32,159 bases of DNA from an uncultured Bacilli bacterium (GTDB taxonomy: Bacteria > Bacillota_I > Bacilli_A > RF39 > UBA660), in NCBI GenBank assembly GCA_944329365.1, contig CALVIC010000015.1, positions 1 through 32,159 of the forward strand. Direction: 5' to 3'. Shown here piece by piece: positions 28,913-32,159 of the stretch (positions are counted from its first letter, which is position 1; each line of letters starts with the position of its first letter). A program made the position numbers and the translations under genes. The notes beneath the pieces are model-generated. The model did not search any database and was not told the origin of the DNA. It worked only from the letters and a program-made list of their open reading frames with translations.

Positions 28913-30388
28913 TTAAATTACTATTGCGAAGAGGTTGCCTGAGCCTTTATTTACAAGCTTTGTCAAGGTTTGTTTTAGTTTAAATCTAACTGAATCTGGC
29001 ATTAAAGATAGTTTTGCTTGAATGCCTTCTTGAACGATTACGTCTAAGCTTCTTCCGAATATTTCACTTTTCCAAATATTGTTACTTCGGCTATCTTGAT
29101 CTTTCATAAGGTGGCTTATTAATTCTTTACTTTGAATTTCTGAACCGATAATTGGTTCAAATGTACTTTCGACGTCAACTCTAATCATGTGAATCGATGG
29201 GGCAACAGCTTTTAGTTTAATTCCATAGCGGCTGCCTTGTTTAATTATTTCTGGAGTATCTAAGGTCATATCTTGAAGACTTGGTGATGCAACACCATAA
29301 CCGGTTTTCTTAACCATTTTTAAAGCTTCTTTGACTTGGTCGTATTCTCTTTTGGCTTCATCATAGGTTTGGAACAGACTTAGAAGCTGCGATCTACTAG
29401 TTATGTCAACACCAATTATTTCTTTTAGAACTTCATTGTACAGATTACTTGGGGTTTTTAGAGTAACTGTTACTTCACCATTAGAGGTGTTTACTTCTGA
29501 TAGATAAGCTTTTTCAATATATTCACAAGTTTCTAATTTGCCGGTTATTTGATCGATATCTCTAAGTTTATCAATTTCAGTTATACTTTCTCTAATCGTT
29601 TCAATGTAGGCTTTTTTTAGCCAATTATTTGGTTCGAGCGTCGCAACCCAGTCGGCTATTTCAACATTTATGCAAACGACTGGAAATTCATATAAAGCTT
29701 CTCTTAAGATGTTATATGCATCTCTTTCACTCATATTGTCAACGTTGAGTGGTATTACTGGAGCATTATATTGTTCTTTTAATTTTTCTGCTAAGTCTTC
29801 GGTTTCCGGAAGCATTGGGTGAGTACTGTTTAAAATAACGATATAAGGTTTCCCAATATCACTCAGTTCTCCCGCAATTCTCTCTTCGGCATCGACATAA
29901 TCGTTTCTGGAAAATTCACCTATTGAACCGTCGGTTGTAACCAATACGCCAATAGACGAGTGGTCTTTAATTACTTTTTCTGTTCCGATTTCTGCAGCTT
30001 CAACAAAGGGAATTGATTCATCGTACCATGGTGTGTGCACCATCCTGGGGCCATTTTCATCTTCATATCCTTTGGCGCCTTCGATTACATAACCGACACA
30101 ATCAACTAATCTAACATTGGCTGAAAAGTCGTCTATTTTTATTTTTGTAGCATTGCTTGGAACAAATTTTGGTTCGGTGGTCATGATTGTTTTTCCTTGA
30201 GCTGATTGTGGAATTTCGTCTAGGGTTCTTTTCCTTTCGTATTCGTCTTCAATGTTTGGAACAACTAAATTTTCGATGAACCGTTTGATGAAGGTCGATT
30301 TACCGGTTCTGACGGCACCAACAACACCTAAGTAGATATCACCGCCGGTTCTTTCGGTGATGTTTCTAATAATGTCTATTTTTTCCAT
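28913..30388 (-). CDS. spoIVA: Stage IV sporulation protein A, spore-coat ATPase
   Basis: An ATP-driven cytoskeletal protein that polymerises around the forespore to form the base of the coat. The N-terminal P-loop GAVRTGKST (residues 24-32) lies in a GTPase-like domain with VRLVDCVGYVI and ATKIKIDD. A middle domain and a C-terminal membrane-facing segment ending NKGSGNLFAIVI follow. The length of 491 residues matches B. subtilis SpoIVA (492). AGGGAG precedes the ATG at 30388. Upstream lies a likely sigma-E promoter, fitting its mother-cell role. Its presence is strong evidence that the organism, or a recent ancestor, forms endospores. Confidence 0.96.
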   Translation of the reverse strand: MEKIDIIRNITERTGGDIYLGVVGAVRTGKSTFIKRFIENLVVPNIEDEYERKRTLDEIPQSAQGKTIMTTEPKFVPSNATKIKIDDFSANVRLVDCVGYVIEGAKGYEDENGPRMVHTPWYDESIPFVEAAEIGTEKVIKDHSSIGVLVTTDGSIGEFSRNDYVDAEERIAGELSDIGKPYIVILNSTHPMLPETEDLAEKLKEQYNAPVIPLNVDNMSERDAYNILREALYEFPVVCINVEIADWVATLEPNNWLKKAYIETIRESITEIDKLRDIDQITGKLETCEYIEKAYLSEVNTSNGEVTVTLKTPSNLYNEVLKEIIGVDITSRSQLLSLFQTYDEAKREYDQVKEALKMVKKTGYGVASPSLQDMTLDTPEIIKQGSRYGIKLKAVAPSIHMIRVDVESTFEPIIGSEIQSKELISHLMKDQDSRSNNIWKSEIFGRSLDVIVQEGIQAKLSLMPDSVRFKLKQTLTKLVNKGSGNLFAIVI

Positions 30389-30481: not shown

Positions 30482-32041
30482 TTAAGATTGTTTTAAGGTA
30501 ACATGATCTGTTCCACTATTACTAAACATACCATATATATCAGTACCATCTGTTGACCAATTTGGACCAACATAGATTGTTTGTAAGTTAGTTGTGTTTA
30601 AAAACATATTTACCATACTTTTTACTTTTTTAGTGTTAAAATTGCTTAAATCTAGGGCTTTGAGGCTACTACAATTATGAAACATTCCAGCCATATTAGT
30701 TACATTACTTGTATCAAAATTACTTAAGTCAAGTTCTGTTATTTTAGCTAATCCATCAAACATTTGTCCCATATTGGTTACACTACTTGTATCAAAATTA
30801 CTTAAGTCGAGTTCTGTTAATTCAGTAAGTCCGGCAAACATACCCGACATATTTGTTACTTTTGAGGTTTTAAAGCTAGATAAATTTATTGTTTTTAATT
30901 GAGAAACACCATCCCAAGTTGCAAACATCTGATTCATATTGGTTACATTTGAGGTATCGAAATTACTTAAATTAAGCTCTGTTAAGCTTCGACAATGAGA
31001 GAACATTCCATTCATATTGGTGACTTTACTTGTATTAAAGTTACTTAAATCCAATGATTTTAGACGCACACACCAATTAAACATTCCATGCATATCGGTT
31101 ACTTTTGAGGTATCAAATTTTTCTCCAAAGGTAATACTTTCTAAGTGACCCACTCCATCAAACATAAAGTTCATGTTTGTAACGTAGCTTGTGTCTAAAT
31201 TACTTAAATCAATCGTCTTTACACTTTTTAAAGAAGAGAACAAATAACCTGAATTAGGATTGGCTGTAACTCCACCGTCTCCTCCAATATAAAGTTTATA
31301 ATAACCAGTATTTTCTGTATCATTTACTATCCAAGCCATGATACTTCCGTCTTGTCTTTCTGAGACGTCCCAACTTTGGACAGCTTCTGATTGTATATTT
31401 TTGTTATTTAAAATTTCAATTGATGTTATTTTTTCACGGTATTCTGCACTGTGATAATCTAACTGTGAATTTGTCGTATAGCTTCTCATTAAGTTTGTTT
31501 CGACCGGTAAGACCTCTCCTTCATCAGTTGTTCCAGCTTGAACATAATCTAAAGTTATAGTTAAATCACTTGTTAAATTTGCAGGCTGATTAGTTATTTC
31601 TGGATTATATGTAACAATTACATTGAATGTTGTTGACTCATGCGCTTTTAGGGTATCTCCTTGTTCAATTCCAGTTATTTCAAATATTATGGCCTGATTA
31701 TTACTATCTGTTTTACTTAATGTTTTAAGTACGGCATCGATACTTCCCCTATTTTCAACTGTCACTGTATACTGCATGCTGTCTCCTGGACTTACCAAAT
31801 TTGTTTTAAATGTCGCAGTTGTATCTGTATGACTTGGTTCTTCTGAATTTTCCGGGGTTCCATTTAAAACACTACTTTGAATATCAGTAATTAATACTTT
31901 CCATTCACTTGAGATATTACTTGTTCCATTAATTGTAAGCTGTGACCTAAAAGCTGCGTATCCTGCGGCCATTACCAAAAGAATACTACATAGACCTAAG
32001 ATTATATAATTTCTTTGTCTTGTATTGAATTTTCTTCTCAT
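30482..32041 (-). CDS. Surface protein with BspA-type (DUF285) leucine-rich repeats
   Basis: A secreted or membrane-held protein of 519 residues. A basic start and one hydrophobic helix (residues 11-30, IILGLCSILLVMAAGYAAF) lead into a TasA/camelysin-like beta domain (about 32-170, FRSQLTINGTSNISSEWKV, VTVENRGSIDAVLKTL). Nine units of about 25 residues with the core LDLSNFDTSxVTNMxxMF (about 270-515) follow; these are DUF285 repeats found in adhesins and other surface proteins. No LPXTG or other clear wall anchor is present, so the N-terminal helix may be an anchor or a signal. AAAGGAGTG precedes the ATG. The promoter contains a poly-G tract, so expression may be phase-variable. Target and role are unknown. 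Confidence 0.9.
   Translation of the reverse strand: MRRKFNTRQRNYIILGLCSILLVMAAGYAAFRSQLTINGTSNISSEWKVLITDIQSSVLNGTPENSEEPSHTDTTATFKTNLVSPGDSMQYTVTVENRGSIDAVLKTLSKTDSNNQAIIFEITGIEQGDTLKAHESTTFNVIVTYNPEITNQPANLTSDLTITLDYVQAGTTDEGEVLPVETNLMRSYTTNSQLDYHSAEYREKITSIEILNNKNIQSEAVQSWDVSERQDGSIMAWIVNDTENTGYYKLYIGGDGGVTANPNSGYLFSSLKSVKTIDLSNLDTSYVTNMNFMFDGVGHLESITFGEKFDTSKVTDMHGMFNWCVRLKSLDLSNFNTSKVTNMNGMFSHCRSLTELNLSNFDTSNVTNMNQMFATWDGVSQLKTINLSSFKTSKVTNMSGMFAGLTELTELDLSNFDTSSVTNMGQMFDGLAKITELDLSNFDTSNVTNMAGMFHNCSSLKALDLSNFNTKKVKSMVNMFLNTTNLQTIYVGPNWSTDGTDIYGMFSNSGTDHVTLKQS
30490..31240 (-). repeat. Tandem DUF285 repeat-coding units
   Basis: Eight to nine imperfect units of about 75-84 bases encode the LSNFDTSxVTNMxxMF motif. 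Several share long near-identical stretches, for example around 30700-30760 and 30770-30830, giving room for copy-number change by recombination or slippage. Confidence 0.8.
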
Positions 32042-32073
32042 ATAAAAACACTCCTTTTCTATTGTACAATTCC

Positions 32074-32103
32074 ATTGTACACCCCCCCCCCCAGAAAAAT
32101 CAA
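32074..32103 (-). promoter_or_regulatory. Promoter of the surface-protein gene with a poly-G spacer
   Basis: TTGATT (32098-32103), an 18-base spacer made of TTTCT, eleven G and TG, then TACAAT (32074-32079) on the minus strand. A second TACAAT lies at 32061-32066. The start codon is about 33 bases from the first -10. Confidence 0.7.
32082..32092. repeat. Homopolymer of 11 C (plus strand)
   Basis: The longest G/C homopolymer I saw in this AT-rich window. It lies between the -35 and -10 of the surface-protein promoter and is prone to slippage. Confidence 0.9.
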
Positions 32104-32159
32104 GCTTGGGATGTTATCATTTTTTTAGACAATGTAAAGAGGGGGTCAAGTACCCATAC

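Follow-up and report, generated by a model that had tools for sequence, protein, structure and literature searches.

Eleven G between the -35 and -10 boxes of a PARCEL surface-protein gene: a candidate phase-variation switch in uncultured gut Bacilli

A gene for a predicted repeat-rich surface protein in an uncultured Bacilli genome is preceded by a run of eleven G placed between its -35 and -10 boxes. A sequence-only reading of this DNA had proposed that the run acts as a phase-variation switch, and we asked whether the genome and its relatives agree with this proposal. The window, that is, the whole stretch of 32,159 bp that was analyzed, is the entire contig C15 of a metagenome-assembled genome (MAG) with 57 contigs, 1.30 Mb and 94% completeness. 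The features of the locus are as follows.

32108 to 32110, minus strand: CCC, a shortened version of the CCCCCT box found upstream of the -35 box in most modules (module comparison)
32098 to 32103, minus strand: -35 box TTGATT (read from the sequence; TTGATT or TTGACA stands here in nearly all modules)
32080 to 32097, minus strand: 18-bp spacer between the -35 and -10 boxes (sequence)
32082 to 32092, minus strand: G11 tract, the proposed slippage site (sequence)
32074 to 32079, minus strand: -10 box TACAAT with TG in front, extended -10 type (sequence; conserved among modules)
32063 to 32081, minus strand: 19-bp palindrome, TGTACAAT-GGA-ATTGTACA, covering the -10 box, a likely operator (genome pattern search and module comparison)
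32066 to 32061, minus strand: second TACAAT, 13 bases downstream of the first (sequence)
32051 to 32055, minus strand: ribosome-binding site AGGAG, 9 bp 5' of the ATG (sequence)
30482 to 32041, minus strand, ATG at 32041: predicted surface protein of 519 amino acids (hydrophobic N-terminal segment, paralog region of about 170 residues, PARCEL/DUF285 repeats)

Direct reading of the minus strand gives the order TTGATT, TTTCT, G11, TG and TACAAT, which confirms the eleven G and the 18-base spacer. A whole-genome scan found G11 to be the sole G/C run of 9 or longer in 1,303,721 bp, and the next-longest G/C run in the window is 5. A first-order Markov model predicts about 0.03 runs of G11 or longer per whole genome on both strands. 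The tract is thus far above chance, and the earlier impression that it stands out in this genome was correct. It lies 67 bp from the contig end. With eleven G it is within the range usually regarded as mutable, the cut-off for phase variability in Neisseria being G9 or more (PMC5953494).

The downstream protein had been described as a BspA-like, repeat-rich surface protein. The repeats and the surface type hold, the location being a prediction, but PARCEL/DUF285 fits the protein better than BspA proper. The 519-residue protein contains eight PARCEL repeats (TIGR02167) scoring 243.3 bits against a cut-off of 30, and it belongs to the PARCEL family by the tandem 25-26-residue repeats above the curated cut-off that define membership. 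DUF285 scored 160.7 bits (cut-off 25), and LRR_5 (PF13306) was much weaker than either, with 30.0 bits against a gathering threshold of 27.7. PARCEL proteins are described as often membrane-targeted repeat proteins of variable sequence, disseminated by transfer and shuffling (PMC2996958). Within this genome, six paralogs share the N-terminal region of about 170 residues at 68-74% identity and diverge behind it. This region gave nothing significant in PDB or NCBIfam. Relatives that share it come from Candidatus Coprosoma intestinipullorum and from uncultured Bacilli MAGs; Coprosoma was placed in the order RF39 by its authors (PMC8035907). The window is assigned to this genus from these N-terminal matches together with the genus label that it shares in the genome collection. 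The window also encodes a full-length SpoIVA (28913 to 30388, minus strand), which in a genome of 1.3 Mb suggests a spore-former with a reduced genome.

The promoter in the window is one copy of a module. Its consensus is CCCCCT-N6-TTGATT-N5-Gn-TG-TACAATggaATTGTACA, with the layout CCCCCT, about 6 bp, TTGATT or TTGACA, about 5 bp, the G run, usually TG, TACAAT, 2-3 bp and ATTGTAC. Further copies are present in this genome on contigs C5 (near positions 1, 23k and 48k), C9 and C18, with a degenerate copy on C12, and the module also lies upstream of genes in three related genomes (G001, G011 and G021). We read 25 modules without requiring the palindrome, and one match in coding sequence (L149) was set aside. 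Their spacers are 13 (1 module), 15 (3), 16 (1), 17 (3), 18 (7), 19 (6), 20 (3) and 23 bp (1). The tracts are pure (G6 to G12), interrupted (G5TG5, G4AG7, G3AG7, G7CG3) or mixed with GT repeats. None of the other G tracts in this genome reaches 9, and its other modules carry short or interrupted tracts with a longest pure run of 7. Because the window holds the only copy with a long pure tract in its own genome, most of the other modules are probably locked or slow.

Two other properties of the module were seen by comparison. Of 24 modules, 21 have a run of CCCC or longer no more than 14 bp from the -35 box. The CCCCCT box, which in most modules lies about 6 bp 5' of the -35 box, sets a conserved C run against the G run on the other side of that box, and base pairing between the two runs or binding of a protein are possible roles. 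In addition, contig ends share 52-64 identical bases 5' of three different G-tract genes (window 32108-32159, minus strand; C9 46563-46639; C5 1-64), which points to duplicated upstream repeats or else to promoter/gene shuffling.

A search for the palindrome (TGTACAATGGAATTGTACA) with the pattern TGTACAATNNAATTGTAC, allowing at most one mismatch, found it in the whole genome only within G-tract modules. The sequence-only reading had noted the second TACAAT as a possible fallback start. The hexamer is indeed present 13 bases downstream, but as a fallback -10 box it was rejected: it occurs in only 5 of 24 modules and is instead half of the conserved palindrome, the right arm of which (TTGTAC) is exact in 21 of 24. 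A protein-binding site is therefore the better reading, and in the simplest interpretation, which we infer here, a shared regulator uses the palindrome as its operator. The G run persists outside the Coprosoma sublineage, where the palindrome is missing and the flanks are different. Members of the same surface-protein family that have no G tract carry different promoter palindromes, ATATGGACAATTTGTCCATATAT at L038 and L047 and TACACCAAATTGGTGTATA at L049 and L050, as would fit a separate regulator for each group.

Runs of G9 or longer occur in 24 of the 44 genomes of the genus, with the highest counts in G039 (33), G005 (20), G042 (18) and G026 (15). We fetched 60 stretches around such tracts, disregarding promoters in the choice. 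Wherever the sequence downstream of a tract could be read in G039, G042, G009 and G021, a -10 box lies at most 9 bases after the tract. Seven of the eight G005 tracts are followed by a -10 box, two of them after a short interruption, and the eighth is a coding tract. The G026 contigs enter low-complexity sequence beyond the tract; all ten that were fetched (L202-L211) stop about 260 bp or less past it, several in A-rich low-complexity sequence. The -35 box and the flanks vary by species (TTGCCA-AAAACCT in G039, TTGCCA-AAACCA in G042, TTGACA-AAGTA in G005, TTGAAA-TTTTGAT in G009 and TTGACA-TA in G026), and in most cases the G run directly adjoins the -10 box.

Beyond the genus, the pattern G9-N0-6-TATAAT was found in 46 of 291 family genomes, representing 37 of 150 genera, as compared to 6 genomes for the reversed-pattern control. 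Of 395 genomes in a class-wide sample, 31 have it too, and several of these matches have TTGACA at the expected distance and lipoprotein-like ORFs after the promoter. The -35/G motif had exact matches in 15 viral contigs, which we take as chance; TTGACA-N6-G10-TATAAT gave no match in viral contigs. Searches of an open-access library brought up no account of G-tract promoter switching in RF39 or Coprosoma.

The genes behind these promoters are mostly of one kind. An N-terminal hydrophobic segment is predicted in 60 of 67 distinct ORFs after G-tract promoters vs. 8 of 29 other window genes. YAAF-type proteins with a start codon picked too late account for two of the seven exceptions. YAAF-type N-terminal anchors form the majority of the downstream ORFs in the genus, and the family adds prepilin-like proteins. 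A few downstream ORFs are non-surface by inspection (phosphatase-like and ABC ATPase-like). G-tract promoters thus appear to serve mostly exported or anchored proteins.

Tract length was compared among promoters with a pattern that does not favor any length (AAAACCW-GGG-N0-16-TATAAT). G039 has 21 such promoters, whose tracts measure 6-17 G (mode 12), and G042 has 11, with tracts of 7-17 G (mode 14), these lengths, as all others here, being taken from MAG assemblies and often at contig ends. Promoters of the same genome with 90-96% identical flanks of 55-70 bp have tracts that differ by 1-5 G. G039 shows less variation in the stretch between the -35 box and the tract, which is 7 bp long in 13 of 19 promoters and 6-10 bp overall. 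Length in related genomes thus differs among paralogous promoters, and also in one orthologous pair from two genera (G369 and G463, 87% identical), with G11 vs. G10 after 18 identical preceding bases. It is the same in two closer pairs: G643 and G582 (98% identical) both have G10, and G001 and G011 (99% identical) have (GT)3G7 vs. (GT)4G5, with a total of 13 bases in both. The G369 and G463 promoters (L334 and L335) lie outside the family, and their ORF has no obvious export signal. The G001/G011 comparison involves L045 and L152, a 654-bp stretch 99% identical between MAGs of two species, which is either recent transfer or mis-binning. A scan of further contigs yielded seven loci, several of them assemblies already compared, and no strain variants of the window locus; the sequence of a close G001 ortholog begins inside the gene.

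A spacer-length switch by slipped-strand mispairing, of the type described for porA, is the best explanation of these data, since it accounts for the position, purity and length spread of the tracts and for their target genes; on balance, we regard the promoter as probably phase variable. In this mechanism, slippage would add or remove G between the -35 and -10 boxes, and the changed spacer would affect how RNA polymerase binds and, with it, how much of the PARCEL surface protein is made. Such a promoter would be one copy of a module serving many surface-protein genes in Candidatus Coprosoma-type Bacilli, and a DNA-binding protein probably exerts further control through the palindrome over the -10 box. 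That slippage takes place in living populations and that tract length sets transcription are what we infer from the comparison of genomes. The proposal of a phase-variation switch is thus supported by the recurrence of tracts between -35 and -10 boxes, the length spread within conserved flanks and the exported or anchored targets, and the equal lengths in the two 98-99% identical pairs, the short or interrupted tracts of the other modules in this genome and the general presence of mutS in the genus count against it. The prediction that loss of one G would give an optimal spacer of 17 is not supported. The modal spacers of the related modules are 18-19, with modes of up to 20 in other species; for G042, G005 and G009, modal spacers of 18-21 and above were read. 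The best spacing in these promoters may therefore be above 17, and losing one G could act in either direction. Loss of mismatch repair was considered as a driver of the tracts and rejected, because this genome has mutS1, as do 41 of the 44 genomes of the genus; the gene was not found in G039, which has the most tracts (33), and this may reflect incompleteness.

The alternative that survives best is a fixed promoter architecture. The G run would then be a structural spacer (A-form-like, favoring 18-20 bp) or part of a protein site, and a regulator at the palindrome would set expression with no reversible switching. The concentration of spacers at 18-19 rather than an even spread, the interrupted tracts G5TG5, G3AG7 and G7CG3 that still give a spacer of 18, the unchanged length in the two closest pairs and the restriction of the palindrome to G-tract modules all favor it. 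However, pure tracts of 6-20 G within conserved flanks, giving spacers of 13-24 bp, exceed the tolerance expected of such a design, and beyond the sublineage the G run persists despite different flanks and no palindrome. We consider the fixed architecture unlikely.

Considerably less probable is a recombination hotspot, in which the module is a crossover site for exchange of promoters or N-termini among surface genes and the G run is a by-product. The identical upstream bases at the C15, C9 and C5 ends before three different genes agree with this, as do paralogs that are alike in the N-terminal region and different behind it. Of site-specific promoter inversion or shuffling of the vpma/vsa type, which involves recombination sites at all variants and a recombinase gene, this shared repeat at the three contig ends is the one sign that was seen. 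However, a repeat of about 100 bp suffices to break short-read assembly, and G-tract promoters of other species mostly have distinct upstream sequence. The weakest alternative, an artefact of poly-G calls in two-color Illumina chemistry or of assembly, could appeal to the many tracts at contig ends and to the G026 contigs that run on into low-complexity sequence, but it is highly improbable given the dozens of internal tracts that many MAGs carry on either strand, regularly with a -35 box upstream and a -10 box, ribosome-binding site and ORF downstream.

If the preferred reading of a spacer switch is extended to the lineage, uncultured gut Bacilli may have a promoter phasome in which surface proteins are switched independently by G-tract promoters, numbering up to about 30 or more in a genome of about 1.2 Mb. 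In the Coprosoma sublineage, a shared operator would place one regulator and random slippage on the same promoter, and the working spacer would be 18-20 bp, not 17. We put this wider model forward tentatively, at a little under even chances. If switching does occur, it would constitute a dense promoter phasome outside the known pathogens, with 33 tracts of G9 or longer in one 1.2-Mb genome, and would give commensals a simple path to varied surfaces in the face of host immunity or phages. In this group, contigs of short-read MAGs often stop at G tracts, and surface-gene repertoires are therefore under-assembled.

Promoter switching of this type has known precedents; what may surprise specialists is the scale seen here and the palindrome superimposed on the -10 box. 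The promoter homopolymer of the Mycoplasma hyorhinis vlp genes is poly-A. The vlp system is similar to ours in that a surface-gene family has its own homopolymer promoter for each gene (a promoter-repeat system listed in PMC3899988), and different in that our module has a G tract instead of A and our proteins have PARCEL repeats. In Treponema pallidum, the length of a G run upstream of tpr genes and TP0126 modulates surface-protein promoter activity (PMC10118025). The organism and proteins are unrelated to ours, and the likeness lies in the G run upstream of surface-protein genes. The PARCEL surface proteins (PMC2996958) resemble the window protein in their repeats and membrane-targeting N-terminus; the abstract of that account describes horizontal transfer and intragenomic shuffling and, unlike here, no G-tract promoter. 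Human-adapted Neisseria species have on average 15-19 poly-G tracts per genome (PMC5953494). The closest parallel is Neisseria meningitidis porA, whose transcription is controlled by a poly-G spacer (PMC3899988). As in the window promoter, a G run lies in the spacer of a surface-protein promoter and single-base changes shift the spacer length (van der Ende 1995, as cited in PMC3899988 and PMC10118025). Unlike porA, the present case concerns gut Bacilli, is known from sequence, has a palindrome on the -10 box and involves a kind of promoter common to many genes per genome.
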